Shown piece after piece: positions 11,182 to 60,971 of a DNA stretch of 64,000 nt. The translations under genes were made by a program, and so were the position numbers. Position 1 is the first letter of the stretch. Each line of letters begins with the position of its first letter. Under the pieces are notes generated by a model. That model saw only the letters and a program-made list of their open reading frames with translations. It searched no databases and was not told where the DNA came from. The stretch covers positions 2,812,501 through 2,876,500 of the forward strand of contig JACVTC010000003.1 of assembly GCA_016946835.1 (NCBI GenBank), in the 5' to 3' direction. The DNA comes from Neocallimastix lanati (nom. inval.). Lineage: Eukaryota; Neocallimastigomycota; Neocallimastigomycetes; Neocallimastigales; Neocallimastigaceae.

Positions 11182-11307
11182 ATTACCTATTTATATTATG
11201 CAAAATATAATTAGTGTAGTATTAAAATATTAATATTTTATAATTTATATAAATTTTTCTTTTACGTTTTAGCAAATATTCTTGATAGCTTGAAGAAGAG
11301 TTATTAT

Positions 11308-12077
11308 TGTTAGAAATTGAAATAAAAATTCTTTTATATCAATTTCTATTCTACAATTTTATATTAATAATATTATTATTAACTAAAATTGAGAAATTTA
11401 AATTTGTTTTATTAAAATAAATCGAGTTTATTATAAGAAAATTTAAATAAATTTAATTTATTTTTTTTTTTTTTTTTTTTAAAAAAATAATAAATAAAAT
11501 TTATTTTAAGATTAAAAAAGAATAAATTTGTTGTTATTAATTTATAAAATTTTATTGTTATTATTATTTTTCTTATAATAATAACTCTTAATTTCTAAAG
11601 GAACTTAAGAGTCTCTATTTATACTTTTTCAAAATTTTAAATTAAATATTGTCTAATCTTAACAAATTTCTTATTTAGGAAAAGATTAGAAGAAAAACCT
11701 AAATAAGTTTCGATTAATATTCTAAACATATTAATCATCGGATCATTAAGTAAAACCGATACCAATCAGTATTCGGGAAAACCTTAAAGATCGATTTTCT
11801 AATTATTTTTATAATAAATAATTTTAATTAAATGTCCGAAATAATAAATAAAAAAAATTAAAAATTGAAAAAATTTGTCCAAATTTAGAAAAAATTTTTT
11901 GTTATGAAAAATTTTAAATAATTTTTGATTATGTCTAAACATTTAAATAATAATTATAACGAATGAATATTAACTAATATTAATAAAATTTTTAATTATT
12001 AAGTTTAACTAATAATTGGTTAACTACTCCTAATTTTTAAATAATTTTACATGTAATAGTTATAGTACATTGTTACA
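11308..12077 (-). repeat. Element A 5' LTR with self-primer site
   Basis: The inner end is well placed. On the minus strand the sequence ends CTAACA at 11308 and is followed directly by ATAATAACTCTT (11307-11296). That is the exact complement of AAGAGTTATTAT at 11589-11578, 34 nt after a TATAAATAG box (11623-11615), the Tf1-type self-primer arrangement. The outer end at 12077 (minus strand TGTAACAATG) is a guess based on the ~770-bp length of the related C and F LTRs. A T tract lies at 11461-11482. Confidence 0.5.
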
Positions 12078-15731: not shown

Positions 15732-16143
15732 TTTAAGAAAATTTATTATTTAATTATTTATTTATTTATTTTTTGCTTTGTTTTGTTTTGTTTTCTCAAA
15801 ATTAATAACTTTATAATTATATTAGTAAAGTCGACCAGGTCTCTATCCAATTATGTATGGTGACGGTCGAGTAAACTAATTTTTTATAAATGACTTATTA
15901 ATTTTGAAGAATTATATTTTTTCTGGTTATTAGAAGGAGTTTTTTCACTTGTTTTAGTCTGTATTACTAGATACAATGTTCATTTAAGCCCTGAATTGTG
16001 GCCCTCGATTACAGTCCAATTATTGATTTCAAAATGGTGGCTCTGAATAAAAACTCTTGACCGGCGGTAGTCCAAAAAAAAAATCTTCAGCTTGCGGATT
16101 CTGTTATTGTAACGTATTTTGTAAAATAAAAGGTAATTGTTAT
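15732..16143 (-). other. Element E 5' leader
   Basis: Untranslated leader between the LTR and gag. It starts with the self-primer binding site ATAACAATTAC (16143-16133). A strand at 16120-16101 pairs with the LTR at 16179-16160. Nearer gag (15876-15825) lies a hairpin bounded by GTTTACTCG and CGACTTTAC that is shared with C and F. Confidence 0.65.
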
Positions 16144-17064
16144 TGTAAAAGAAAACACTAAAATAGATTACAATAACAAAATATAATAAATTTTATTTTA
16201 TTAAAAAAATTTTTTATTAAAATATATTTTATTAATATTTAATAGTTATTTATTAAAAATAACAATTACATCGAGAAAAAATGTGAAAAGTATCTTCTAT
16301 TTATACTTTTCCTAAATACATTGATAATATATTATTTTATTTAAATTACATATATTTTAATATAAAACTATCCTAATGAATTTTATTAAATAATAAATTT
16401 ATAAACTATAACTAAATTTAGAAAAATATAATTATTAATTAAACTAAATACTAAATAATTAAAATTAAGTACATTTATTATCTATTTATTATTTCAATAT
16501 TATAAGTAAAGTCTTTATTTATTTTCGATTTAAAAACAATGTTAAAGGAGTCATGATTAAATTTTGAAACTTAATTTTCACAAAGTAAATTATTAATTTA
16601 TTTTGTTTTAAATTTTAATTAATTCATTTAAATTATTTTACAACAATAATTTTCTCAGAATTAAATTTATTATATATTTATTATATAAATATTATTAATA
16701 CTAATGTTTATATATTTACAATTTAAAACTATTTTTATAAACTATTTAAACTAATTTTAACTATTTAAAACTATTCCGAAATTAATTTTAAAGTATTTTA
16801 AACTAACTAAACTAAATTAACTAAATTAACTAAATTAAATAGAATAACCATTTTAAATAAACTAAAAAAAATTAACTAACTTAAATAAATTATTTAGATT
16901 TAAGTTATTATCCAAAATTATTTAAATAATAATTTTTCCTTTATGAAAAGTTTACATAAATTTATAATTAATTTTCATATACGTAAATCATAAATTTATG
17001 TAATTTTATTACATTAATTAATTATGTAATAATTAATTATTAAAGATTTTATTAAATCTTTACA
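16144..17064 (-). repeat. Hybrid LTR shared by elements C (3' side) and E (5' side)
   Basis: The minus strand starts TGTAAAGATTTAAT at 17064, directly after C's polypurine tract AAAGGGCGAGA, and ends TTTTACA at 16144. Bases 16670-17064 are nearly identical to C's 5' LTR (29460-29856). From about 16660 down, the sequence no longer matches C. It carries E's own R region instead: TATAAATAG at 16305-16297 and GTAATTGTTAT at 16269-16259, complementary to E's primer site. This looks like a recombinant LTR joining two elements in tandem. Confidence 0.55.
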
Positions 17065-19810: not shown

Positions 19811-20420
19811 TGTAACGAATATTGGAATATCCGTGTTTTAAAGAGTGTAACACAATAGGTAAGCACTTTTTAATTAATAAGTAATTTGGTTTTTTAGAAT
19901 ATAGTTTTATTAATTAAGAAATTTAAAAATATTAATTATAAAGATTAATTATTGTAATATTTCGAATTACTTATTAATTAATTCAATAATTAATAAAAAC
20001 ACAATTTTTAGAATCTTTTTTTTTTTTGGTTGCGAAATTCACTCCTATTTATAGTTTTTCAAAATTTAAATCCATAAAAATTTAAAACCATAAAATCATT
20101 AAAAAGTTTCATAAAAATTGATTATTTTCGGTTAAAAAGAATCTAAAAGAAATAATGATAAAAGATAAATTAAAATAGAATTTCTATCTGATTTGTTTCT
20201 ATTAATTTCTAAGAATTTCTTTTGTTAATTTTTTCAGAAATTTATACAGAAACAAATACAGAAACAAATACAGAAATGAAGTATAAAAATTCTTTAAAAT
20301 TTAAATGATATAAAATTTTAGTAAAGGTGTGAGTCGAACCCTAGTGGTTCAGGCTGAGGTCATAGTGACTAACCACTATGCCAGCATTCTAATTTCTAAT
20401 TTTTTTTAAGATTCGTTACA
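19811..20420 (-). repeat. B1 3' LTR
   Basis: Plus-strand ends are TGTAACGAAT and ATTCGTTACA, a perfect 10-bp terminal inverted repeat, 610 bp apart. It contains a minus-strand TATAAATAG box (20053-20045) and the tRNA-like module at 20321-20390. The purine tract AGAGGAGGA (20432-20424) sits just inside it. Confidence 0.92.
20321..20390 (-). promoter_or_regulatory. tRNA-derived module with Pol III A and B boxes (B1 3' LTR)
   Basis: On the minus strand, TGGCATAGTGG (20383-20373) fits the A-box consensus. GGTTCGACTCA (20340-20330) matches the B box at 10 of 11 positions. They are 32 nt apart, as in tRNA genes. CATAGTG/CACTATG and GAACC/GGTTC form hairpins, but I could not fold a full cloverleaf. 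T runs follow within about 25 nt on the minus strand, a possible terminator. Confidence 0.6.
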
Positions 20421-20735: not shown

Positions 20736-24995
<4,260 letters not shown>

Positions 24996-25235
24996 TTAGT
25001 TATTATAATCATTAATTTTGATTGAATAATAAATATACAATATAATTAATTATTAGAAGAAGTAAATATTTAATTTCAATATAAATAATTTTAATTTCAA
25101 GGATGGCTATATGGATTATTGAAAATATTAATAATTTTAATATATAGTAAAATTCAAGGGTTCCGATTGAATTTATAAATTCATGCATGAATTTTGGTAG
25201 AAAAAATTTATAGTCTTGGTAAGTGGTTTCAAAAA

Positions 25236-25640
25236 TAGTAGAAAATGGGATTCCTTAACGGGGTTCCAAAAAAGAATAGTAGTAAATGGGATTCCTTAAC
25301 GGTGTTCCAAAAATAGTAGTAGAAAATGGGATTCCTTAACGGGGTTCCAAAAAAGAATAGTAGTAAATGGGATTCCTTAACGGTGTTCCAAAAATAGTAG
25401 TAGAAAATGGGATTCCTTAACGGGGTTCCAAAAAGAGTAGTAGAGAATGGGATTCCTTAACGGGGTTCCAAAAAAGAATAGTAGTAAATGGGATTCCTTA
25501 ACGGTGTTCCAAAAATAGTAGTAGAAAATGGGATTCCTTAACGGAGTTCCAAAAATAGTAGTAGAAAATGGGATTCCTTAACGGGGTTCCAAAAATAGTA
25601 GTAGAAAATGGGATTCCTTAACGGGGTTCCAAAAAGAGTA
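25236..25640 (-). repeat. B1 leader: ten copies of a ~40-bp tandem repeat
   Basis: Plus-strand unit: ATGGGATTCCTTAACGGGGT followed by TCCAAAAATAGTAGTAGAAA. Ten copies are present with small length and base differences. It lies in the untranslated leader between the primer site and gag. B2 has eight copies. Confidence 0.92.
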
Positions 25641-25671
25641 AAAGTGCAAAGGTATTGTGCTTAGTTTAGTG

Positions 25672-25681
25672 GTGTTTTTAT
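25672..25681 (-). promoter_or_regulatory. B1 self-primer binding site
   Basis: Minus strand ATAAAAACAC directly follows the LTR end TTACA. It is complementary over 10 nt to GTGTTTTTAT in the LTR R region (25873-25864), 51 nt after the TATA box at 25924-25916. No TGG-type tRNA site is present. Confidence 0.55.
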
Positions 25682-26291
25682 TGTAACGAATATTGGAATA
25701 TCCGTGTTTTAAAGAGTGTAACACAATAGGTAAGCACTTTTTAATTAATAAGTAATTTGGTTTTTTAGAATATAGTTTTATTAATTAAGAAATTTAAAAA
25801 TATTAATTATAAAGATTAATTATTGTAATATTTCGAATTACTTATTAATTAATTCAATAATTAATAAAAACACAATTTTTAGAATCTTTTTTTTTTTTGG
25901 TTGCGAAATTCACTCCTATTTATAGTTTTTCAAAATTTAAATCCATAAAAATTTAAAACCATAAAATCATTAAAAAGTTTCATAAAAATTGATTATTTTC
26001 GGTTAAAAAGAATCTAAAAGAAATAATGATAAAAGATAAATTAAAATAGAATTTCTATCTGATTTGTTTCTATTAATTTCTAAGAATTTCTTTTGTTAAT
26101 TTTTTCAGAAATTTATACAGAAACAAATACAGAAACAAATACAGAAATGAAGTATAAAAATTCTTTAAAATTTAAATGATATAAAATTTTAGTAAAGGTG
26201 TGAGTCGAACCCTAGTGGTTCAGGCTGAGGTCATAGTGACTAACCACTATGCCAGCATTCTAATTTCTAATTTTTTTTAAGATTCGTTACA
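25682..26291 (-). repeat. B1 5' LTR
   Basis: 610 bp, apparently the same sequence as the 3' LTR, with TGTAACGAAT and ATTCGTTACA termini. TATAAATAG box at 25924-25916. tRNA-like module at 26192-26261 (B box 26211-26201, A box 26254-26244). Confidence 0.92.
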
Positions 26292-28439: not shown

Positions 28440-29079
28440 GTTATCATCAAGATTAAGGTTTTGAAATATGCGATTTAGTTCTTCCAGATTGTTAATGTTA
28501 AAGTGACGTTAATAATTAAATTTTTTTTTTTTTTTTTTGATCTCTTATTATTAATTATACAAGTTATTAATATGTCTATATTTAATATCGTAAAGTCGTT
28601 CAGACTCTATCCACTTGAAAAGGTGTCGAACGAGTAAACGAAGAAAATATAGAATAATATAACTATTATTAATATTTCAACCTGAATAGCAACAATAATA
28701 AGAGTCCAAAATCAGTAAGGGTTAACAATGCTTAAGAGCAATAAAAATCTATGTTAAAAGTCAAAACTATAGAGTCCTAAATCAGTAGAAAGTAGAGTCC
28801 TAAAGTAGAGTCCTAAATCAGTAGAAAGTAGAGTCCTAAAGTAGAGTCCTAAATCAGTAGAAAGTAGAGTCCTAAAGTAGAGTCCTAAATCAGTAGAAAG
28901 TAGAGTCCTAAAGTAGAGTCCTAAATCAGTAGAAAGTAGAGTCCTAAAGTAGAGTCCTAAATCAGTAGAAAGTAGAGTCCTAAATCAGTAGAATGTAGAG
29001 TCCTAAAGTAGAGTCCTAAATCAGTAGAAAGTTTTATTATTTGTAACGTGTTTCTTTTTATTTAAAAGGTATTAGTTAT
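28440..29079 (-). other. Element C 5' leader
   Basis: It starts (minus strand) with the self-primer site ATAACTAATAC at 29079-29069. Then comes a strand at 29054-29037 that pairs with the LTR at 29114-29097, and a tandem-repeat array (28790-29035). A hairpin bounded by GTTTACTCG and CGACTTTAC lies at 28638-28590. A T/A run at 28522-28538 lies close to the start of gag. Confidence 0.7.
28790..29035 (-). repeat. Element C leader: ~36-bp tandem repeat
   Basis: The unit is TAGAGTCCTAAATCAGTAG, AAAG, then TAGAGTCCTAAAG. About seven copies are present, nearly perfect, with one variant at 28992 (GAATG for GAAAG). Confidence 0.9.
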
Positions 29080-29856
29080 TGTAAAGAGTTCTATCAGAAA
29101 CAGATTACAAATAACAAATTTTAACACCAAAATAAAAAAACACGTAATAAAAATTCGTTTTTTTAAATAAAATAATCTTTATTAATTAAAAAAAAATTAA
29201 ATCTCTTTTTTGTTATTAACTATCATATAGTCAATAACTAATACATCGATTTAATTATAGAAATTTACATGTATTTATATTTTTTCATTATTACATTATA
29301 ATATATTATTTCTATCTAATTTACATATATTACTATTTATTTATAAACAAAATATTTATTAATAATTTTATTAAATAATAATTAACTAAACTAAACAATA
29401 ATTAATTCAATAAACTTTCAACTTATTTACAATAATAATTAAATTCAATAACAACTCATTTATTATATATTTATTATATAAATATTATTAATACTAATGT
29501 TTATATATTTACAATTTAAAACTATTTTTATAAACTATTTAAACTAATTTTAACTATTTAAAACTATTCCGAAATTAATTTTAAAGTATTTTAAACTAAC
29601 TAAACTAAATTAACTAAATTAACTAAATTAAATAGAATAACTATTTTAAATAAACTAAACTAAATTAACTAACTTAAATAAATTATTTAGATTTAAGTTA
29701 TTATCCAAAATTATTTAAATAATAATTTTTCCTTTATGAAAAGTTTACATAAATTTATAATTAATTTTCATATACGTAAATCATAAATTTATGTAATTTT
29801 ATTACATTAATTAATTATGTAACAATTAATTATTAAAGATTTTATTAAATCTTTAC
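29080..29856 (-). repeat. Element C 5' LTR
   Basis: The minus strand starts TGTAAAGATT at 29856 and ends TCTTTACA at 29080, so the termini are inverted repeats (TGTAAAGA/TCTTTACA); 777 bp. It contains TATAAATAC at 29279-29271. GTATTAGTTAT at 29244-29234 is complementary to the primer site just inside the element. A R-region hairpin (GTTATTGACTA with TAGTTAATAAC) follows. The inner end is placed by primer-site logic rather than by a matching 3' copy. Confidence 0.7.
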
Positions 29857-30503
29857 AGCACCTTTTTAACGTGTTCATGATGTTCCTCTAAACTATTCGA
29901 ATAAATTAATATATCATCAATGTAAGAAATAACAAAATCATTTAAGTAATCGCTAAGAACATCATTTATAAAATACTGGAAGGTGGCTGGAGCATTTTTT
30001 AAGCCAAAAGGCATAACTAAATATTCAAAATGACCATATCGAGTACGAAATGCAGTCTTGTACTCATCACCTTCTTTAATTCTTACTAAATTATAGGCAG
30101 ACTTTAAGTCCAACTTGGTAAAATATTTTGCACCTTTAACTCTATCTAATAATTCACTTATTAAAGGAAGAGGATAAGAATTACGGATGGTCATTTCATT
30201 CAATTTTCTATAATCAACACATAATCTCAATGAACCATCTTTCTTTTTAACAAATAATACAGGTGCACCAGCGGGTGACTTGGATTTCCTAATGAATCCT
30301 TTTTCTAAATTTTCTTTTATATACTTTTTTAGTTCATCTCGTTCTGCCTCAGTTAAGGGATATATTGGACCATAAAATAAATTTGAATTATCCTTTAACC
30401 TTATTTCACAATCATATTCACGATGTGGAGGGAGTACATTGCAATTTCTTTCATTGAATACTTCTGCGTAATTATTATAAATAGGAGGTATTCCTATAAT
30501 TTT
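29857..30503 (-). pseudogene. Fragment D: RT N-terminal half of a C-type element
   Basis: The minus strand reads [83 protein letters not shown] and [10 protein letters not shown], then is cut by the C LTR at 29856. It is nearly identical to element C across the B1 insertion site, which is uninterrupted here. On its other side it abuts D2 in opposite orientation at about 30503. No Gag, RNase H or integrase remains. Confidence 0.85.
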
Positions 30504-31586
30504 TGTGTATCTTTTCTAGACTTTCTTGGACATAGAATCTCTGCAGATGGTATTTACATGGACCCTAAGAAGGTTTCTTCTATCCTAGAATGGCCAGCCC
30601 CAACTAATACTAAAGAACTCCAATCATTTTTAGGACTTGCTAACTATTACAGACGCTTCATCACAGGATTCGCTAAGTTATCCCATCCACTTAACATTTT
30701 ACTCAGAAAAAATACAAAATTCATTTGGACAATCGAATCTCAAAAGGCTTTCGATGAAATTAAGTCAAAATTTTCTTCAGCCCCTGTACTTGCATATCCA
30801 AACCGTGAAATTACTTTTATGGTTGAAACCGATAGTAGTAATTTTGCTATTGGTGCTATTCTTTCGCAAACTTTGACTAAAGATAACAAAATTCACTCTG
30901 TCGCATTTTTCTCAAGAGCTCTCAACCATGTCGAAAAAAATTATCCCAAATATGATAAGGAACTTCTTGCCATTGTTTCGGCTTTAGAACACTGGAGACA
31001 CTTATTACAAGGCACAGATATTCCCTTCACCATTTTCTCCCATCATCGGAATCTACTTTACCAAAAGAAACCAGAAAAGATGTCACAAAGACTTGTCCGT
31101 TGGTTAATATTCCTCTCCGAATTCAATTTTAAAATTATCTATCGTTCTGGATCATCTAATGGAAAACCTGACTCACTTTCCAGAAGACCTGATTATATTC
31201 CTTCCTCTGACGACTTCTCTTCCGAAACTCCATTTTTCGTACTTCGCCCTGAAAATTTTGTTGTTACTGTCTTAACTATTTCTGATCTCTCTAATAAAAT
31301 TCTTAATGAATGTAAAGATGATATTTTTTATCATAATATCCGCGAATATTTAGAAAATAAAAACCTTCCAATTCCTCATCCAAACATTGATAAATTTTAT
31401 CAAAGTAATAGTTTCTTACTCTTCGATAACAAATTATACGTTCCATCTAAGTGTCGCCCTTTCGTTTTGAATATATGTCATGACTCTCCTTCCTCTGGAC
31501 ACTTTGGAATTAAGAAAACCCTCAATCTTCTGAACCGTGACTTCTTGTGGCCTTCTTCCAATCCTGATACCAAGGATTATGTGCTC
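30504..31586 (+). pseudogene. Fragment D2: RT end, RNase H and integrase finger of a B-like element
   Basis: Begins in mid-RT ([16 protein letters not shown]). It continues through the connection domain ([18 protein letters not shown]), RNase H ([29 protein letters not shown]) and the start of the integrase HHCC finger (CHDSPSSGHFGIKKTLNL). F's LTR breaks in at 31587. The RNase H DHRN/DHKN motif is HHRN here. Its open frame reaches back to 30423 only by chance, through antisense D sequence. D2 resumes at 38505. Confidence 0.85.
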
Positions 31587-32354
31587 TGTAAAGATATGAT
31601 CAATATCTTTAGTACATTAATTAATTTATTTTGTACATTAAATTATTTAATGTAATTCACGTTTACAAAATAATGCTAATGCATTAAATTATGTAAAATA
31701 TATTAATTTATGAAATTAATTGATTTATGAAAATTAATAATAAATTTATATTTCATATAATATATAATTTTAAAAATATAAAATTAATTTTTAAATAACC
31801 TAAAATTTAGTAATAAAATATTTTAATAATTTTAGTTTAGTTTAATTTTAGTTTAGTTTAATTTTAGTTTAGTTTAATTTTAGTTTAGTTTAATAATCAT
31901 AAAAATTAAATAGTAATATATAATTAATAGTATTAATAATAAAAGAATAATAAATAAATAATAAATAAGAACTTATTCAATTTGAGTCAAAACAAATTGA
32001 ATAAAAAGCTTATTGAATTAGTTTTAGTTTTTTATAACTTTATTTAATTTTAGATTAGTTTTTGTTTATTTTATATTGAATATATGTTTAAATAAATAGA
32101 AATAGTATATTATAATATAATTAAGAAAAAATATAAATACATGTAAAATTATTCTATTAAAAAAAATGTAGTTGTTATTAACTATTTTTGCAGTTAATAA
32201 CTAATAAAAAGAATTTTTATAATAAAGTGATTAATAAAAGAATTTTTTTTAAAAAAATCAATTTCATTAGAGTATTGTTATTGATAGTGTTGTTTTTGTT
32301 TTTTTTTTGTTTTTTTTCGTAATTGTAATGTGCTCCATAAGGAACATTTTTACA
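31587..32354 (+). repeat. F 5' LTR
   Basis: Starts TGTAAAGATATG, ends ATTTTTACA. TATA box TATAAATAC at 32132-32140. The predicted RNA 5' end carries GTAGTTGTTAT at 32168-32178, followed by a hairpin (GTTATTAACT with AGTTAATAAC). Four copies of a TTTAGTTTAGTTTAATTTTAG-like unit lie at 31834-31893. Confidence 0.9.
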
Positions 32355-32365
32355 ATAACAACTAC
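32355..32365 (+). promoter_or_regulatory. F self-primer binding site
   Basis: ATAACAACTAC, directly after the LTR, is the exact 11-nt complement of GTAGTTGTTAT at the predicted RNA 5' end (32168-32178). The yeast Tf1 element uses an 11-nt self-primer of this kind. The flanking strands 32325-32337 and 32380-32392 pair over 13 positions (one a G-U pair), enclosing the site. Confidence 0.75.
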
Positions 32366-32399
32366 CTTGTTATAAAAAGTGGAGCACGTTACGATCACG

Positions 32400-32842: not shown

Positions 32843-35800
32843 GTGGAAGAACTTAATATTAGGCTAAGAAACCTCCACATTGAAGATATGGTGGAACGTG
32901 GACGAGAAGAAAAACGGAAGGTCAGTAAGCCACCGATTTTTAACGGTGAAAGAAAAGAACTTAAAGGGTTCCTCACAATTGTAAATATGAACTTTGAGGA
33001 TACCCCAGATGACTTTCCAGACGATAGATCAAAGGTTAGATTTATAACCTCATTCTTAAGAGGTGATCCTTTAAATTGGGCCTCAAATCTATGGGATAAT
33101 GAAGATCCCTTGATCGATAATTTAAATAATTTTAAGAGGGAACTTAAAATTAATTATGAAGATCCAGAAGTGGAGACAATTGTGGCTAATGGTAAATTAG
33201 ATACCATTCGTCAGAAAAAATATGGGCAAGTGTTAGAATATATTAACCAGTTCAAAACAACTTGTCAAAATTCGGACTTCAACGAATCAGCCAAAATTTA
33301 TATGTTTCTTAAAGGATTACATTACAAAATGAGGGAACAATTAGCCGTTGTTAACCCAAATCCAGATTCCCTTAACAAGTTGTATACTGATGTAATTCAA
33401 ATTGAAAATTTGTCAAAGCGAACTAATCTTGTTGAATTCTACTATAATCAGCAACGAGTTAGAAATTCGCAACAAAACAGTAACCACAACCAGAGAAAAA
33501 GTAGTCGTCGTGATGATCCTATGGATGTTGATTTATTTAGGATCAAAAATGATAGATATAGAAGATACAACCAGAACTATAATCAAAATTTATATGTTGA
33601 AAATAAAAGAGAATTTTCTGAAGAAAAGAAAAAAGGTCTTTGTTTTTTATGTAAACAACCAGGACACTTACAGTTTAATTGTCCTAACAGAAAAAGACCT
33701 TCTGGAGTTAAACACAAGAATAAAATTAGAGAAACTGATGAAAATCTTCCATCGGCAAAATTAAGAAGAATTAGAATGATCAAGGAATCCGATGATGCTC
33801 AAAAAATTAGAGCTATTACTGATGAAGAAAATGCTATGAATAAAAGAAAGAACAATATAATTACTTTCTATATAAAAACAAATGATATTGAAGAAGTTCC
33901 AGTTAGGGTTCTTATCGACTCTGGCTCGGATTTGAATTTTATTCATCCTTCGTTCGTTAATAAAAACAAAATTAAATTGAATGAAGTTAAAAAATCTTTC
34001 AATGTTACTGGACTAGGATATGGTATCTCTACCATCTACGAACAAACTGAAAAGTGTATCTTACGATTCAAGAACCATTTTGAAGTTATTCAACTCTATG
34101 CACTTTATATTCCTGATGTAGATATCATTCTAGGTATTCCTTGGATTGAAAAGCATTGTCCAATGAATTATCATGATTCAAGAAAAATATCCTTTCCTTC
34201 TGGTTATTGCGCTAGGAACTGTAATAATGGTAAAAGAAAAAGAAAAAACAAAAATAGAAGCAAGAAAGGTTCAAAGAAGTGTAAGATCGATATCGAACCT
34301 GAAGAAGAAATTTCCTATGAACCAAGTACTCCATATAAGTGTAAACCCCTCTGGGATTCCGAATCAGAAAGCGAAGCTGAATACGTCCGTGGAAGAAAAG
34401 TTAGAACCATTAATGATAGTGATAGTGATAGTGATAGTGATAGTATTAATATTAGTGTTAAAGATAATGATTGTAGTAAAGAAAAAATTAACTTTTGTAA
34501 TTTTAAAGAACTTAGTACAATAGATAAAATCAAAAAATCATGTAATTTTATTAAATCATGTAAAAATGAAATTTTAAATAAAAAAAGTAAATTGGTCGCC
34601 GAACCAACAAACTATTTTTTTTCTTATCAAAATTGTGTGTTAGACAATTTGTATAACTGTCTGATTATTCAGAATTTAGATAATAATAATATTGTTAACG
34701 ATAGTGATAATAAAATTTCTATTCCTCCTTGTTATCTCGATTATATTGAAGTTTTTGATGAAAAGAATTGTGATAAATTACCTCCCCATAGAGAATATGA
34801 TTGTGAAATAAATTTAAAGGATAATTCAATTCTATTCTATGGTCCTATTTATCCTTTAACAGAAGCAGAAAGGGATGAATTGAAAAAGTATATTAAAGAA
34901 AACTTAGCAAAAGGATTTATTAGAAAATCCAAATCACCAGCTGGTGCCCCTGTATTATTTGTTAAAAAGAAAGATGGCACTTTGAGATTATGTATTGATT
35001 ACAAAAAATTAAATGAAATGACTATTAGAAGTTCATATCCTTTACCATTAATAAGTGAATTAATTGACAGAGTTAAAGGTGCTAAATATTTTACTAAGTT
35101 AGATCTTAAATCTGCATATAACTTAGTAAGAATAAAAGAAGGTGATGAGTATAAGACTGCTTTTAGAACTCGTTATGGACATTATGAATATCTTGTTATG
35201 CCTTTTGGGTTAAAGAATGCACCTGCTACATTTCAACATTTTATAAATGATGTTCTTAGTGACTACTTAGATGATTTTGTTGTCTCATATATCGACGATA
35301 TTCTTATTTATTCAAATAACTTAGAAGAACATCATGAACATGTTAGAAAAGTGTTGAAAAAACTTTTAGATAATAATTTATATATTAAACTAGAAAAATG
35401 TGAATTCGATGTAACGGAAACCTCCTTCCTGGGTTACATCATATCTAAAGATGGTCTTAAACCTGATCCTGAAAAAATTAAAGCTATTTTAGATTGGCCT
35501 GTACCTACTAATGTCAAAGAAGTTCAGTCATTTATTGGACTTTGTAATTATTATAGAGTTTTCATTAAAGATTTTGCCAAAATAGCTGTACCAATACATA
35601 AACTCACTCGTAAAAATGTACCTTTTATTTGGGGACCTGAGCAACAGAATGTTTTTGTTAAATTGAAAGAACTTTTCACATCTGCTCCAATTTTAATTAA
35701 TCTTGATAGTAATAAACCGTTTATCGTTGAAACTGATGCTAGTAACTTTGCAGTTGGAGCTGTACTTTCTCAAGAAGTTGATGGCAATCTCCATCCAGTT

Positions 35801-37726
35801 GCCTTTATTTCTTCGAGTTTGACTAAGTCTCAAAGAAACTACCCCATTTATGATAAGGAACTTCTCGCTATTAAAGTTGCTTTAGAGCAATGGCGTTACT
35901 TTTTAGAGGGTGCTCGTCATCCCTTTACTATTTACACTGATCATAAAAATTTAACATTTCCTAGAAAACCGGAAATGCTTTCGCAACGTCAAATTAGATG
36001 GTATGAATTTTTATCTCGTTTTGATTTTAATATTGTCTATAGATCTGGGAAAAAATCGGGTAAACCTGATTTACTATCTAGGAGAAGTGATCATTTATTT
36101 AATTTTGAATTTAATTCTTCTTGTCGTGTTATTAACTGTCTTACTATTAATAATGATACCCTTGCTAATTCTATTTTGAATGCTCTTGAGAATGATGAAT
36201 TCTATAATTCTGTTAAATCATCCTTATCTATTAATAATGCTGTTAACCCTAAAATTCAAAATATTAATAAATTCATGATTGATAAAGAAGGATTTTTACT
36301 TTTTAATAATCTGATTTATGTTCCTAAATCGATTCGAACGAGAGTTCTTGAACTCCATCATGACTCTCCTACTGCTGGTCATTTTGGTGTTTCTAAGACT
36401 CAAGAATTACTTAGCCGCAATTTTTGGTGGCCTAATTTTTCTCTTGATGTTAAAAAATTTATTAAGTCTTGTGAAGTTTGCTGTAAATCAAAAATTCCTA
36501 GACACAAGCCATATGGACTTCTTTCACCCTTGTCCACTCCTAATAGAGCTTGGTCTGATATTTCTATGGATTTTATCGTTGAATTACCTAAGTCTAAAGA
36601 TATGACTACAATTATGGTTGTTGTTGATCGTTTGACTAAAATGGCTCATTTTATTCCTTTTCGTTGTCTTCCTACTGCTTCAATTGCTGCTGATGCTTTT
36701 ATCTCGAATATTTTTAAATTACATGGTTTCCCTGATTCTATTATTTCTGATAGAGGATCGCAATTTACATCTGAATTTTGGAATCGCTTATGTAAACTTC
36801 TTGATATTACTCATTCTCTTTCTACCTCCAACCATCCGGAGACTGATGGTCAAACGGAGAGGGTGAACGGAATATTGGAACAATATCTTCGTTGTTTCAT
36901 AAATGAAAGGCAAAATAATTGGGTCGATTTACTACCTTTCGCTGAATTCGCTTACAATAATACTTTACATCAATCTATAAATCAATCACCATTCTTCGCA
37001 AACTATGGTTTTAATCCTAAATTTAGTCCTGAGATTCCATCCTCAGAAAGACCAAGTAGAGCTGAAAAAAGAATATTAGATATTAATAAAAATATTGAAT
37101 TTTTAAAAAGAAACTTAGAAGAAGCTAAGAAAACTTATAAAAAATACGCCGATTTGAAAAGACTTCCTTCCCCTAATTTCGAAGTCGGTAAAAAAGTTTG
37201 GTTACTTAAAGGATCTACTACTAAGAATGTTAAAAGAAAACTAGCCGATCAATTGATAGGTCCTTTTGAAATAATTGGAAAAGTTAGTCCCTTAGTGTAC
37301 AAACTTAAACTACCTAATAATATGCATTGTCATCCAAATTTTCATGTTTCTTTACTTGAACCTTATTATGAGAATGAATTTGAAGATAGAAATGTTAATA
37401 AACGAAAGAGTATAAATTTAACTACAAATAATTCCGATATGATTCCAGATAAAATAATTAATATGAGAACTTATAAAGGAAAGAATCGTTTTCTTATCTC
37501 TTGGAAAGGATCAAATGAAAACTCTTGGATAGATGAAAATCAAATTTTAGATAAACAATTAATTCAGGAATACTTTAGAAAAAATAAGAAAAATAAAACA
37601 AGAACAAAGGATCAAGAATCTATTAAGAATGATGATCATGCCAATGATTTCATTGTAAGACATAAATATCAACCCTTTGTTATAGAACTTCCCTCAAGAA
37701 ATGATTCTCGCAGGAGCTCGACTTAA
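32843..37726 (+). CDS. Element F Gag-Pol polyprotein, intact
   Basis: A single frame of 1627 codons counted from GTG 32843 (VEELNIRLRNLHIEDM); the first ATG is at 32888. Capsid (about 30-190), CCHC CFLCKQPGHLQFNC (near 268), protease VLIDSGSDLNFIHPSF (Asp near 358). Long acidic/basic linker with a Ser-Asp run (34418-34443). RT from about 640: [36 protein letters not shown]. RNase H ETDASNFAVGAVLSQ and YTDHKNLTFPRK. Integrase HHCC (LHHDSPTAGHFG, CEVCC), D-D-E (SMDFIVELP, SDRGSQFTS, TERVNGILEQ), GPF module. The end is a divergent chromodomain (RTYKGKNRFLISWKG, NSWIDENQ). Gag and Pol are fused with no stop or frameshift. The upstream codons 1-15 are conserved in C and E, so a non-ATG start at the GTG is plausible. 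Confidence 0.92.
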   Translation: MEELNIRLRNLHIEDMVERGREEKRKVSKPPIFNGERKELKGFLTIVNMNFEDTPDDFPDDRSKVRFITSFLRGDPLNWASNLWDNEDPLIDNLNNFKRELKINYEDPEVETIVANGKLDTIRQKKYGQVLEYINQFKTTCQNSDFNESAKIYMFLKGLHYKMREQLAVVNPNPDSLNKLYTDVIQIENLSKRTNLVEFYYNQQRVRNSQQNSNHNQRKSSRRDDPMDVDLFRIKNDRYRRYNQNYNQNLYVENKREFSEEKKKGLCFLCKQPGHLQFNCPNRKRPSGVKHKNKIRETDENLPSAKLRRIRMIKESDDAQKIRAITDEENAMNKRKNNIITFYIKTNDIEEVPVRVLIDSGSDLNFIHPSFVNKNKIKLNEVKKSFNVTGLGYGISTIYEQTEKCILRFKNHFEVIQLYALYIPDVDIILGIPWIEKHCPMNYHDSRKISFPSGYCARNCNNGKRKRKNKNRSKKGSKKCKIDIEPEEEISYEPSTPYKCKPLWDSESESEAEYVRGRKVRTINDSDSDSDSDSINISVKDNDCSKEKINFCNFKELSTIDKIKKSCNFIKSCKNEILNKKSKLVAEPTNYFFSYQNCVLDNLYNCLIIQNLDNNNIVNDSDNKISIPPCYLDYIEVFDEKNCDKLPPHREYDCEINLKDNSILFYGPIYPLTEAERDELKKYIKENLAKGFIRKSKSPAGAPVLFVKKKDGTLRLCIDYKKLNEMTIRSSYPLPLISELIDRVKGAKYFTKLDLKSAYNLVRIKEGDEYKTAFRTRYGHYEYLVMPFGLKNAPATFQHFINDVLSDYLDDFVVSYIDDILIYSNNLEEHHEHVRKVLKKLLDNNLYIKLEKCEFDVTETSFLGYIISKDGLKPDPEKIKAILDWPVPTNVKEVQSFIGLCNYYRVFIKDFAKIAVPIHKLTRKNVPFIWGPEQQNVFVKLKELFTSAPILINLDSNKPFIVETDASNFAVGAVLSQEVDGNLHPVAFISSSLTKSQRNYPIYDKELLAIKVALEQWRYFLEGARHPFTIYTDHKNLTFPRKPEMLSQRQIRWYEFLSRFDFNIVYRSGKKSGKPDLLSRRSDHLFNFEFNSSCRVINCLTINNDTLANSILNALENDEFYNSVKSSLSINNAVNPKIQNINKFMIDKEGFLLFNNLIYVPKSIRTRVLELHHDSPTAGHFGVSKTQELLSRNFWWPNFSLDVKKFIKSCEVCCKSKIPRHKPYGLLSPLSTPNRAWSDISMDFIVELPKSKDMTTIMVVVDRLTKMAHFIPFRCLPTASIAADAFISNIFKLHGFPDSIISDRGSQFTSEFWNRLCKLLDITHSLSTSNHPETDGQTERVNGILEQYLRCFINERQNNWVDLLPFAEFAYNNTLHQSINQSPFFANYGFNPKFSPEIPSSERPSRAEKRILDINKNIEFLKRNLEEAKKTYKKYADLKRLPSPNFEVGKKVWLLKGSTTKNVKRKLADQLIGPFEIIGKVSPLVYKLKLPNNMHCHPNFHVSLLEPYYENEFEDRNVNKRKSINLTTNNSDMIPDKIINMRTYKGKNRFLISWKGSNENSWIDENQILDKQLIQEYFRKNKKNKTRTKDQESIKNDDHANDFIVRHKYQPFVIELPSRNDSRRSST

Positions 37727-37736: not shown

Positions 37737-38504
37737 TGTAAAGATATGATCAATATCTTTAGTACATTAATTAATTTATTTTGTACATTAAATTATTTAA
37801 TGTAATTCACGTTTACAAAATAATGCTAATGCATTAAATTATGTAAAATATATTAATTTATGAAATTAATTGATTTATGAAAATTAATAATAAATTTATA
37901 TTTCATATAATATATAATTTTAAAAATATAAAATTAATTTTTAAATAACCTAAAATTTAGTAATAAAATATTTTAATAATTTTAGTTTAGTTTAATTTTA
38001 GTTTAGTTTAATTTTAGTTTAGTTTAATTTTAGTTTAGTTTAATAATCATAAAAATTAAATAGTAATATATAATTAATAGTATTAATAATAAAAGAATAA
38101 TAAATAAATAATAAATAAGAACTTATTCAATTTGAGTCAAAACAAATTGAATAAAAAGCTTATTGAATTAGTTTTAGTTTTTTATAACTTTATTTAATTT
38201 TAGATTAGTTTTTGTTTATTTTATATTGAATATATGTTTAAATAAATAGAAATAGTATATTATAATATAATTAAGAAAAAATATAAATACATGTAAAATT
38301 ATTCTATTAAAAAAAATGTAGTTGTTATTAACTATTTTTGCAGTTAATAACTAATAAAAAGAATTTTTATAATAAAGTGATTAATAAAAGAATTTTTTTT
38401 AAAAAAATCAATTTCATTAGAGTATTGTTATTGATAGTGTTGTTTTTGTTGTTTTTTTGTTTTTTTTCGTAATTGTAATCTGCTCCATAAGGAACATTTT
38501 TACA
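37737..38504 (+). repeat. F 3' LTR
   Basis: 768 bp, almost identical to the 5' LTR. Differences include a T-run change near 38451 and GTAATC for GTAATG near 38480. The high identity indicates recent insertion. Confidence 0.9.
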
Positions 38505-38633
38505 CGCTCTTGCGAAATATGTTGTTGGTCAAAAGTTTCTAAACACAAACCTTACGGCTTGTTAAACCCGCTTGACATTCCAAATCGCCCTTGGACTTCC
38601 ATCTCAATGGACTTCAGCCAAGTTATAACGATA
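38505..38633 (+). pseudogene. Fragment D2 continued: integrase finger
   Basis: Resumes the integrase interrupted by F: RSCEICCWSKVSKHKPYG, LLNPLDIPNRPW, SISMDF. The catalytic core then breaks off, followed by about 15 unrelated bases up to the GATA where element G is inserted. The bases after GATA reappear beyond element H at 60976. Confidence 0.8.
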
Positions 38634-39557
38634 TGTTAAGGAATGAACTAATAATGTTAATTTTATTATTTTTCATAAAAATAACTTAACCACTAAAATT
38701 AAATTATTTATTTCCTTACTTGGGGAACTTTCTTATGTTCTATTACTGCCAAATTATTACTAATATTAAATTTATTATTATTAATATAAATTCTTTATTA
38801 ATATCAATACTTTATTATTAAAATTAATACTATATTATTAATATCAATATTATTATCAATATCTAGTTTTATTAATATGATTTATTCTATCAATATTTTA
38901 TTATTAAAGAAAATTTTATTTTACAAATATTACTAATACAGATTATTTATTATTAATAAAAATTAATATAATTAATAATGATTTAAAAATATTTTACTTA
39001 AATCCATGATCCTTGTCATTAAAATTAGTAATACTTCCTTCCAAAATACACCCTATTTATAATAAGATTAATAATAGATAATAATCTAAAATACTTTTAT
39101 TTAAAAATAGTTTAAAATTAAATAATACTCTATTACTAATAGTTCTGTAAAAGTAATAAAATTATTTTTAAAATATATTATCACTACAATTAATAATAAA
39201 TAGTTTAGAATTTAATAATATATAATAATTATTTATTATAATAGAATAGATTATGAATTTATAATTTAAATACAATTCAAACATGTAACCCTAAGATATT
39301 CTAAAGAAATGGCTTGACCATTTCTAACGATAAAAAAAAATATAAATAGATGAGAAAATTGTATTTTAGAAAAATAATCTGAAGAAAAAAATATAATCTT
39401 ATTAAAGAAATTAATTTATTTTTAGTTTTTAATTGAATAATTTTTATTAAATAAATAAATAAAATATTTTAAAAAAAAAGATATATTTTAATTTTTAATT
39501 TTTTTTATTTTAGTGTTTATTTCTATATTTATTATTATTCTGTCCTGAACCTCAACA
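38634..39557 (+). repeat. G 5' LTR
   Basis: Starts TGTTAAGGAATG, ends ACCTCAACA. TATAAATAG at 39341-39349. It matches the 3' LTR apart from scattered single-base changes (for example GTCCTG versus GTCCCG near the end). Confidence 0.92.
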
Positions 39558-41227: not shown

Positions 41228-45310
<4,083 letters not shown>

Positions 45311-45544
45311 TTATTATAATTATTAATTTTGATTGAATAATAAATATACAATATAATTAATTATTAGAAGAAGTAAATATTTAATTTCAATATAAATAAT
45401 TTTAATTTCAAGGATGGCTATATGGATTATTGAAAATATTAATAATTTTAATATATAGTAAAATTCAAGGGTTCCGATTGAATTTATAAATTCATGAATG
45501 AATTTTGGTAGAAAAGTTTATAGTCTTGGTAAGTGGTTTCAAAA

Positions 45545-45870
45545 ATAGTAGAAAATGGGATTCCTTAACGGGGTTCCAAAAAGAGTAATAGAGAATGGGA
45601 TTACTTAACGGGGTTCCAAAAAGAGTAGTAGAGAATGGGATTCCTTAACGGGGTTCCAAAAAAGAATAGTAGTAAATGGGATTCCTTAACGGGGTTCCAA
45701 AAATAGTAGTAGAAAATGGGATTCCTTAACGGGGTTCCAAAAATAGTAGTAGAAAATGGGATTCCTTAACGGGGTTCCAAAAATAGTAGTAGAAAATGGG
45801 ATTCCTTAACGGGGTTCCAAAAATAGTAGTAGAAAATGGGATTCCTTAACGGGGTTCCAGAAAGAGTAAA
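45545..45870 (-). repeat. B2 leader: eight copies of the ~40-bp tandem repeat
   Basis: Same unit as in B1 (GGGATTCCTTAACGGGGTTC followed by the A-rich spacer). Eight copies against ten in B1, with one TTACTTAACG variant at 45601. The self-primer site ATAAAAACAC (minus) follows at the LTR edge (45909-45900). Confidence 0.9.
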
Positions 45871-45909
45871 AGTGCAAAGGTATTGTGCTTAGTTTAGTGG
45901 TGTTTTTAT

Positions 45910-46510
45910 TGTAACGAATATTGGAATATCCGTGTTTTAAAGAGTGTAACACAATAGGTAAGCACTTTTTGATTAATAAGTAATTTGGTTTTTTAAAATA
46001 TAGTTTTATTAATTAAGAAATTTAAAAATATTAATTATAAAGATTAATTATTGTAATATTTCGAATTACTTATTAATTAATTCAATAATTAATAAAAACA
46101 CAATTTTTAAAAAATATTTTTTTTTTTTTTGGCTGCGAAATTCACTCCTATTTATAGTTTTTCAAAATTTAAATCCATAAAAATTTAAAACCATAAAATC
46201 ATTAAAAAGTTTCATAAAAATTGATTATTTTCGGTTAAAAAGAATCTAAAAGAAATAATGATAAAAGATAAATTAAAATAGAATTTCTATCTGATTTGTT
46301 TCTATTAATTTCTAAGAATTTCTTTTGTTAATTTTTTACAGAAATTTATACAGAAACAAATACAGAAACGAATACAGAAATGAAGTATAAAAATTCTTTA
46401 AAATTTAAATGATATAAAATTTTAGTAAAGGTGTGAGTCGAACCCTAGTGGTTCAGGCTGAGGTCATAGTGACTAACCACTATGCCAGCATTCTAATTTC
46501 TAGTTTTTTA
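45910..46510 (-). repeat. B2 5' LTR, outer end displaced by a solo LTR
   Basis: Matches the B LTR from TGTAACGAAT to TAGTTTTTTA. The final bases TTTAAGATTCGTTACA are found at 47380-47395, beyond the inserted solo LTR. tRNA-like module at 46425-46494 (B box 46444-46434, A box 46487-46477). Confidence 0.88.
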
Positions 46511-52712: not shown

Positions 52713-53637
52713 TGTTAAGGAATGAACAAATAATGTTAATTTTATTATTTTTCATAAAAATAACTTAACCACTAAAATTAAATTATTTATTTCCTTACTT
52801 GGGGAACTTTCTTATGTTCTATTACTGCCAAATTATTACTAATATTAAATTTATTATTATTAATATAAATTCTTTATTAATATCAATACTTTATTATTAA
52901 AATTAATACTATATTATTAATATCAATATTATTATCAATATCTAGTTTTATTAATATGATTTATTCTATCAATATTTTATTATTAAAGAAAATTTTATTT
53001 TACAAATATTACTAATACAGATTATTTATTATTAATAAAAATTAATATAATTAATAATGATTTAAAAATATTTTACTTAAATCCATGATCCTTGTCATTA
53101 AAATTAGTAATACTTCCTTCCAAAATACACCCTATTTATAATAAGATTAATAATAGATAATAATCTAAAATACTTTTATTTAAAAATAGTTTAAAATTAA
53201 ATAATACTCTATTACTAATAGTTCTGTAAAAGTAATAAAATTATTTTTAAAATATATTATCACTACAATTAATAATAAATAGTTTAGAATTTAATAATAT
53301 ATAATAATTATTTATTATAATAGAATAGATTATGAATTTATAATTTAAATACAATTCAAACATGTAACCCTAAGATATTCTAAAGAAATGGCTTGACCAT
53401 TTCTAACGATAAAAAAAAATATAAATAGATGAGAAAATTGTATTTTAGAAAAATAATCTGAAGAAAAAAATATAATCTTATTAAAGAAATTAATTTATTT
53501 TTAGTTTTTAATTGAATAATTTTTATTAAATAAATAAATAAAATATTTTAAAAAAAAAGATATATTTTAATTTTTAATTTTTTTTTATTTTAGTGTTTAT
53601 TTCTATATTTATTATTATTCTGTCCCGAACCTCAACA
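52713..53637 (+). repeat. G 3' LTR
   Basis: 925 bp. Starts TGTTAAGGAATG behind the purine-rich AGCGAGGGCA, ends CTCAACA at 53637. TATAAATAG at 53420-53428. GATA (53638-53641) follows, then the H LTR. Confidence 0.92.
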
Positions 53638-53641
53638 GATA

Positions 53642-54253
53642 TGTTACGAAACAATATTATATATTAATAATTTTTAAAGTCAGAAAAATATTATCTTATA
53701 TTTTATATTTTTATTATTAAATTTATTATTTTATATTTTATATTTTTATTATTAAATTTATTATTTTATATTTTATATTTTTATTATTAAATTTATTATT
53801 TTATATTTTATATTTTTATTATTAAATTTATTATTTTATATTTTATATTTTTATTATTAAATTTATTATTTTATATTTTATATTTTTATTATTAAATTTA
53901 TTATTTTATATTTTATATTTTTATTATTAAATTTATTATATATTTATATATATATAATTATGTTATATTAAGAATAATATTAAAAATGATTAATTAGAAA
54001 AATATTTTTAACCAATTAAATTTATATATTGAACTATAAAAAGACAAATGTAAAAGAAATAATTTTAAAAACTCTCTCTTAAAAATTTTAAAAGAAATAA
54101 AACAATAAAAATAACAGTAAGTCTTAAGAAGTGTCGGTTTTGATTTTGTTTGTGTTATTTGTTGTTCTTGGTTTATTTTTAGGAGTTATAAATATTAATT
54201 GTTATGAATATACAGTTCAGAATTATTAAATAATATTTTAAAATCCTGTACCA
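53642..54253 (+). repeat. H 5' LTR with seven 35-bp repeats
   Basis: 612 bp. Starts TGTTACGAAACAAT, ends CCTGTACCA. Bases 53697-53941 hold seven copies of a 35-bp A/T unit (TTATTTTATATTTTATA, then TTTTTATTATTAAATTTA). TATAAAAAG at 54035-54043. Confidence 0.88.
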
Positions 54254-59652: not shown

Positions 59653-60971
59653 TGTTACGAAACAATATTATATATTATTAATTTTTAAAGTCAGAAAAAT
59701 ATTATCTTATTGTAAAAATGTTCCTTATGGAGCAGATTACAATTACGAAAAAAACAAAAAAAACAACAAAAACAACACTATCAATAACAATACTCTAATG
59801 AAATTTATTTTTTAAAAAAAATTCTTTTATTAATCACTTTATTACTTTATTATAAATATTCTTTTTATTAGTTATTAACTGCAAAATAGTTAATAACAAC
59901 TACATTTTTTTTAGAATAATTTTACATGTATTTATATTTTTTCTTAATTATATTATAATATACTATTTCTATTTATTTAAACATATATTCAATATAAAAT
60001 AAACAAAAACTAATCTAAAATTAAATAAAGTTATAAAAAAACTAAAACTAATTCAATAAGCTTTTTATTCAATTTGTTTTGACTCAAATTGAATAAGTTC
60101 TTATTTATTATTTATTTATTATTCTTTTATTATTAATACTATTAATTATATATTACTATTTAATTTTTATGATTATTAAACTAAACTAAAATTAAACTAA
60201 ACTAAAATTAAACTAAACTAAAATTAAACTAAACTAAAATTATTAAAATATTTTATTACTAAATTTTAGGTTATTTAAAAATTAATTTTATATTTTTAAA
60301 TTTATATATTATATGAAATATAAATTTATTATTAATTTTCATAAATCAATTAATTTCATAAATTAATATATTTTACATAATTTAATGCATTAGCATTATT
60401 TTGTAAACGTGAATTACATTAAATAATTTAATGTACAAAATAAATTAATTAATGTACTAAAGATATTGATCATATCTTTACACTTATATTTTATATTTTT
60501 ATTATTAAATTTATTATTTTATATTTTATATTTTTATTATTAAATTTATTATTTTATATTTTATATTTTTATTATTAAATTTATTATTTTATATTTTATA
60601 TTTTTATTATTAAATTTATTATTTTATATTTTATATTTTTATTATTAAATTTATTATATATTTATATATATATAATTATGTTATATTAAGAATAATATTA
60701 AAAATGATTAATTAGAAAAATATTTTTAACCAATTAAATTTATATATTGAACTATAAAAAGACAAATGTAAAAGAAATAATTTTAAAAACTCTCTCTTAA
60801 AAATTTTAGAAGAAATAAAACAATAAAAATAACAGTAAGTCTTAAGAAGTGTCGGTTTTGATTTTGTTTGTGTTATTTGTTGTTCTTGGTTTATTTTTAG
60901 GAGTTATAAATATTAATTGTTATGAATATACAGTTCAGAATTATTAAATAATATTTTAAAATCCTGTACCA
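59653..60971 (+). repeat. H 3' LTR, interrupted, five 35-bp repeats
   Basis: Starts TGTTACGAAACAAT at 59653 and ends CCTGTACCA at 60971. The F-type solo LTR plus its 5-bp duplication take up 777 bp, leaving 542 bp. That is 70 bp (two repeat units) shorter than the 5' LTR. Confidence 0.88.
59711..60482 (-). repeat. Solo LTR of element F family
   Basis: 772 bp, the reverse complement of the F LTR (plus strand starts TGTAAAAATGTTCC, ends CATATCTTTACA). Flanked by CTTAT at 59706-59710 and 60483-60487, a perfect 5-bp target duplication. Its identity to F is very high, so an F-type element moved and was excised to a solo LTR recently. Confidence 0.92.

Follow-up and report, generated by a model that had tools for sequence, protein, structure and literature searches.

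The chromodomain Ty3/gypsy elements found in the stretch of DNA analysed here (64,000 nucleotides, hereafter the window) very probably belong to the Tf1/sushi kind and prime reverse transcription with the 5'-terminal stretch of their own transcript. The primer and its PBS are exactly complementary, the match is anchored at the edge of the LTR and it covaries between families; it is accompanied by a predicted stem in which U5 pairs with the leader. Most of what is known about self-priming comes from fission yeast, and the present elements are a rich new set of members of a mechanism that is itself already known. With at least 12 families or subfamilies and six types of primer and PBS, natural covariation makes it possible to derive the pairing rules of the primer duplex and of the stem around it, and the signature is extended, probably, to an anaerobic gut fungus. 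Searches of an open-access library that lacks most subscription papers yielded no description of self-priming in anaerobic gut fungi.

Nested elements and their primer/PBS pairs

Nested Ty3/gypsy elements are densely packed in the window. Element F, on the plus strand, has a 5' LTR (TGTAAA...TTTACA) at 31587..32354, a 3' LTR at 37737-38504 and a gag-pol ORF (32843..37726) comprising capsid, protease, RT, RNase H, integrase and chromodomain. Pfam identified capsid, protease, RT, RNase H and integrase in both F and B. The chromodomain was scanned for in the same two elements and lies at the C-terminus of the integrase (9e-18 in B; 2.6e-8 in F, where it was seen on the C-terminal piece only and is absent from the whole-protein listing). 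A Tf2-type SH3 also occurs in both. In a tree of RT and integrase that covered F, C and B, with A, E and any named Tf1 or sushi sequence outside it, these three elements fall into a clade of 21 rows (support 98/100), apart from plant and algal rows. Rows from fungi, fish and amphibians make up this clade, with a single one from an amoeba; the sister placement relative to the vertebrate rows reaches a support of 87/89 only. F, C and B are hence placed in a mainly fungal/vertebrate chromovirus clade, in a tree flagged for long branches and for unlike letter make-up in several rows, including win_F, win_B and win_C.

Nested insertions are common. For instance, B1, whose LTRs occupy 25682-26291 and 19811-20420 and which shows a target duplication of 5 bp (TCAAC), is inserted in C, and F is inserted in a B-like pol (30501-31583, 38499-38615). 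A lone F-family LTR (59711-60482, minus strand, 97% identical) adjoins the 3' LTR of G. Both B copies (20736-24599 and 41228-45091), whose proteins are 99.3% identical, are without about 110 amino acids of RT (F residues 668-777). Since the open frames of other genome copies are about 115 amino acids longer, B may be an amplified deletion derivative, perhaps served in trans, which retains its own primer/PBS pair.

The sequence-only reading had proposed that A, B, C, E and F carry, just inside the LTR and in place of a tRNA site, a stretch complementary to their own predicted RNA 5' end, and our measurements bear this out. The five pairs are exact reverse complements of 10-12 nt, the PBS begins at base +1 after the LTR in 5/5 families, and no TGG occurs within the first 20 nt past the LTR of any of them. 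In F the self-primer GTAGTTGTTAT, which is the predicted RNA 5' end, is located at 32168..32178, 36 nt after the TATA TATAAATA (32132..32139), and the PBS ATAACAACTAC adjoins the LTR at 32355..32365 (all on the plus strand). The remaining pairs are on the minus strand: primer GTATTAGTTAT (29234..29244) and PBS ATAACTAATAC (29069..29079) in C, GTAATTGTTAT (16259..16269) and ATAACAATTAC (16133..16143) in E, AAGAGTTATTAT (11578..11589) and ATAATAACTCTT (11296..11307) in A, and GTGTTTTTAT (25864..25873) and ATAAAAACAC (25672..25681) in B1. The second B copy (B2, LTR edge 45910) has its primer at 46092..46101 and its PBS at 45900..45909, also on the minus strand. The predicted RNA 5' ends are derived from the spacing to TATA, for which we measured the same distances as had been reported, namely 36 (F), 35 (C), 36 (E), 34 (A) and 51 nt (B1). 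As the LTRs of A, B, C, E and F all end in ...ACA and a T follows the primer, the pairing extends one more base, onto the last LTR base. The signature is thus present in each of the five families, but these do not represent five independent origins, because F, C and E are related (the C pol is 77% identical to that of F).

Pairing within and between families

The genome in which the window lies comprises 199 Mb in 762 contigs, and the matches listed in it number at least 98 for the F RT, at least 123 for the E gag, at least 131 for the B gag and at least 93 for the A protease-RT. Upstream regions were examined for 40 of the at least 123 E-gag matches and for 11 smaller stretches, and L081-L089 were treated singly. 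Seven more families or subfamilies (H, I, J, K, M, N and O) possess the signature, which is therefore found in 12/12 families examined in detail, and the 12 families share six primer/PBS types. The primer GTAATTGTTAT is carried by H (L055), I (L066) and J (L074), GTATTAGTTAT by K (L080), GTGCTTTTAT by M (L083+L081) and N (L086), and AAGAGTTATTAT by O (L089), a relative of A. Three A-like families were sampled; the region of O covered both primer and PBS, and those of L087 and L088 missed the LTR. Locus L082, which is disrupted and by eye has an A-like primer region in the opposite orientation, was left out.

The PBS of M (ATAAAAGCAC) was seen before the LTR was retrieved, and the primer that it implied later turned up at TATA+41, the expectation being unrecorded beforehand; the primer and PBS of M differ from those of B by one compensated pair. 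The distance between TATA and primer is 34-38 nt in nine families. In the B lineage it amounts to 41 (M), 43 (N), 51 (B1) and 55 nt (B2), so the RNA start of this lineage is uncertain and its primers may not be the very 5' end. We also observed in M (L081, minus strand, first 100 nt) a near-duplicate of the LTR end and PBS (TTTACAATAGAAGCACC) about 20 nt upstream of the one that is used; it is perhaps the relic of an older PBS.

When more members of the families were aligned, primer and PBS were found to pair at every position in 39 of 50 loci, a count from which L009-L038, being RT flanks, were left out. Two of the others (L040 and L043) show alignment gaps over exact 11-nt matches, four (L004, L042, L053 and L054) have a primer region that is absent or not alignable, and four (L050, L051, L062 and L069) have changes on the primer side with the PBS intact. 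The last, L071, is without PBS and looks like a 3' LTR. The F primer is present in 7/8 of the loci L001-L008; these were chosen by their exact F PBS, and hence their primers alone are informative.

Between families, the bases differ and the pairing is kept, in agreement with the sequence-only reading, and both sides change together. In a 12 x 12 comparison every primer pairs best with its own PBS type, in every row and column (own mean -11.6 vs cross mean -4.4; 0/20,000 permutations as good; families of the same type tie). Within the F clade (F, C, E, H, I, J and K) the 12 primer pairs are 100% paired in 7/7 rows and 2 of the 12 are changed on both sides. Because the rows are related, the independent events are few (F vs the others, C/K vs the others and B vs M/N). 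In the covariation analysis of this clade, slid registers leave 33.6-58.1% of cells paired, compared with 95.9% as observed.

Relatives outside the source genome were represented by 11 loci from other contigs (L090-L100). Two of these, L095 and L096, have an RT 56-57% identical to that of F and reside in contigs that are evidently eukaryotic and are binned as an 'uncultured Trichormus' MAG, a cyanobacterial name. They carry AAGGCGAACAA/TTGTTCGCCTT and AAGGTGAACAA/TTGTTCACCTT at TATA+32, and provide another compensated pair (GGCGAACAA/TTGTTCGCC in L095 and GGTGAACAA/TTGTTCACC in L096). Their PBSs, beside putative LTR ends, start one or two bases past GTGACA. Their relative L097 shows partial pairing only. 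No clear primer/PBS pair was seen in L093, and none convincing in one scan of L094, L098 and L100. The loci L090-L092 (RT identity 85-90%) are in contigs of bacterial MAGs, whose isolate labels presumably denote rumen surveys, and appear to start after the PBS. On the strength of these labels, the host of the present elements would be a gut eukaryote, probably an anaerobic fungus. A search for relatives in viral contigs found none.

An inverted copy of the primer is located between TATA and primer in L095 (63-93) and L096 (near 680-711), for instance GTTCGCCTTGGT/ACCAAGGCGAAC in L095. By eye only, a seemingly shorter copy occurs in A (upstream of 11589) and in O. Such a copy would fall upstream of the predicted RNA start.

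Probable self-priming and its alternatives

Self-priming is described as established for Tf1 in passages of two studies, with a PBS complementary to the first ~11 nt of its own RNA (PMC7175516, PMC10085805). A 'pretzel' made of the primer:PBS duplex and two duplexes between PBS-adjacent and LTR sequences is outlined in one of them (PMC10085805), and passages of these and further papers propose self-priming for Tf1/sushi, Tj1, Tcn1 and TAR elements (PMC7175516, PMC10085805, PMC4600332, PMC6317226). The covarying pairing across the present families supports the same mode of priming, as had been suggested from the window, with RNA 5' ends that are predicted ones. The RNA would start about 35 nt past TATA, and its first 10-13 nt would pair with the site touching the 5' LTR, a complementarity that the sequences and their covariation show. 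The U5-leader stem beyond the PBS, a predicted pairing in 10/12 families with covariation in the F clade, would hold the primer in place. By analogy with Tf1, RNase H would cut after the primer and reverse transcriptase would extend it from the exact LTR edge; a second transfer is probably also part of the cycle. Plus-strand copying of the attached primer would convert the PBS into a match for it, and this would explain why the pairing survives change. The covariation may therefore be partly templated repair rather than selection on pairs, which also requires self-priming.

It seems improbable that the RNA 5' end pairs with the PBS for packaging, dimerisation or translation control and that priming is done otherwise. 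Pairing alone is no proof of cleavage or extension, and alternative hairpins exist; however, the duplex ends in 12/12 families at the LTR edge, the position that has to serve as template for the first cDNA base, and in the passages on Tf1 the experimentally known use of the primer:PBS arrangement is priming (PMC7175516).

Priming by a tRNA or another host RNA, with an incidental complementarity to the element's own LTR, is very improbable. Two other Ty3-type elements of the window, D and G, have a tRNA-like TGG 7-9 nt past the LTR (38634-39557, 52713-53637 and 53766-54253), and the genome thus seems to contain tRNA-type sites as well. A search for the tRNA of D by a strict gene pattern derived from its PBS gave 0 matches, and the 15-nt complement of this PBS alone has 966 occurrences in the genome. 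Neither D nor G has a convincing LTR complement at offset 0 (6 nt in D; 9 nt in G, where the match is of low complexity with a chance of 0.31). In A, B, C, E and F, however, no TGG occurs in the 20 nt past the LTR, and PBS and LTR of the same element covary, an outcome that a fixed host RNA would not produce.

An exact complement just as long would arise by chance in the LTR with a probability of 0.004 for F, 0.0053 for C, 0.002 for E, 0.0007 for A and 0.005 for B1 (Markov-1 LTR model, 3000 simulations per family). At other leader offsets (330 per family), matches at least as long were counted once in F, twice in C, five times in E, twice in A and not at all in B1. Offset 0 is not always unique and the window is AT-rich (A+T = 75%); the constant feature is a match of 10-12 nt at offset 0 in each family. 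Chance matches in such DNA, or ancestry shared by the related F, C and E without constraint, are hardly credible, as they are refuted by the chance figures (0.0007-0.005 per family at one expected offset) and by the covariation in the F clade, both sides changing together and slid registers losing the pairing.

Predicted U5-leader stem, candidate primer hairpin and known systems

In an unconstrained RNAalifold prediction for the F clade, U5 forms a stem with leader sequence beyond the PBS; it has 19 pairs, of which 10 are changed on both sides, and 93.2% of cells paired. One position of this stem is non-standard in 6/7 rows (C.C; G-C in F). The U5 and leader strands of the stem, which is U5-IR-like, are at 32318..32336 and 32381..32399 in F (plus strand), and on the minus strand at 29097..29115 and 29036..29054 in C, at 16160..16178 and 16102..16120 in E, and at 25719..25742 and 25639..25662 in B1. 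For the primer and U5-leader helices together, 0/500 shuffles reach the percentage paired, the both-side changes (in pairs or cells) or the covariation score, and 58/500 reach the observed count of further pair types, in a test where relatedness alone can beat such shuffles. Across the 12 families, the U5-leader duplexes have an own mean of -23.8 vs a cross mean of -14.2 (0/20,000 permutations as good), with the own duplex second-best in one direction in J and H. The stem is predicted in 10/12 families (F, C, E, H, I, J, K, B, M and N; a longer U5 window was needed for M), and no convincing one was found in A and O (own ranks 3/10 and 12/11 of 12).

The third duplex of the pretzel is suggestive in B, I, J and M, where it appears strong, and less so in N, but lacks support across the 12 families overall (987/20,000 permutations as good). 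A third duplex placed next to the PBS (the LTR's last 20 nt) was rejected, its own pairs being no better than cross pairs (3064/20,000 permutations). Between PBS and gag, the leaders of B (24606-25720 and 45078-45949) and C (28734-29079) carry tandem repeats whose unit length is about 36-41 nt.

In 8/12 families (F, C, A, B, I, J, K and O) the primer can alternatively form a local hairpin, in which its 3' half pairs with an arm close by and pairing with the PBS is excluded (z -2.3 to -6.5; 0-3% of 500 shuffles as strong). For instance, the 5' arm of this hairpin in F, which holds the primer 3' half, is at 32174..32183 and the 3' arm at 32192..32201 (plus strand). In K, folding the first 60 nt by themselves gives a different structure as the best one. 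The hairpins of E, H, M and N are not beyond shuffles at that level, and with 4/12 families lacking a significant one the hairpin was rejected as a universal feature. Only 1/10 of its pairs is changed on both sides, and owing to this slight covariation we regard the hairpin as a lead and not as a result. A more speculative reading, which we consider rather unlikely, is that the RNA 5' end forms a two-state switch between the local hairpin (GUUAUUAAC/GUUAAUAAC type) and the primer:PBS duplex with the U5-leader stem. In the locked state, the hairpin would hold the primer 3' half and the predicted cleavage site; in the open state, the freed hairpin arm of I and J would pair further downstream in U5. 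If true, the switch would delay reverse transcription to the time of packaging or maturation. Both the primer-hiding hairpin and the rewriting of the PBS by primer copying are ideas that can be tested.

The elements resemble Tf1 of Schizosaccharomyces pombe and its group (Tf2, Tosmo1-3, Tcry1 and Tj1), as portrayed in passages of three papers, in having a PBS that adjoins the LTR and matches the predicted RNA start, an LTR duplex with PBS-adjacent sequence and a chromodomain gag-pol (PMC10085805, PMC7175516, PMC4600332). Unlike in that group, the third duplex is not established here, and a primer-sequestering hairpin is found in 8/12 families, of which the passages in those papers make no mention (PMC10085805, PMC7175516, PMC4600332). 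F, C and B share with the Tf1/sushi chromoviruses of vertebrates and other fungi the RT-integrase clade with 98/100 support, in a tree without a named reference, but their host is probably an anaerobic gut fungus. Predicted self-priming is also a likeness to the Tcn1 clade (fungi and mosses) and to TAR (plants), according to passages of one study (PMC6317226); TAR, however, is Ty1/copia, unlike the Ty3/gypsy elements here. Passages of another study report Tcn1 from the chytrid Batrachochytrium too, and for SM-Tcn1 of Selaginella evidence for neither tRNA- nor self-priming (PMC2864245).

The LTRs of H, I and J start with TG and end with TA (CTTTATA; CTTAATA in L074) and not with CA, whereas fission-yeast 5' LTRs always end with CA in the relevant passages of PMC10085805. 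The TA ending was found in 5' LTRs, in an apparent 3' LTR (L071 2100-2880) and in an apparent solo LTR (L043 858-930). An origin of the 'TATA' ends from primer copying was rejected, because the apparent 3' LTR of L071 and the apparent solo LTR of L043 also end with TATA and, furthermore, the H primer is followed by T at that position.
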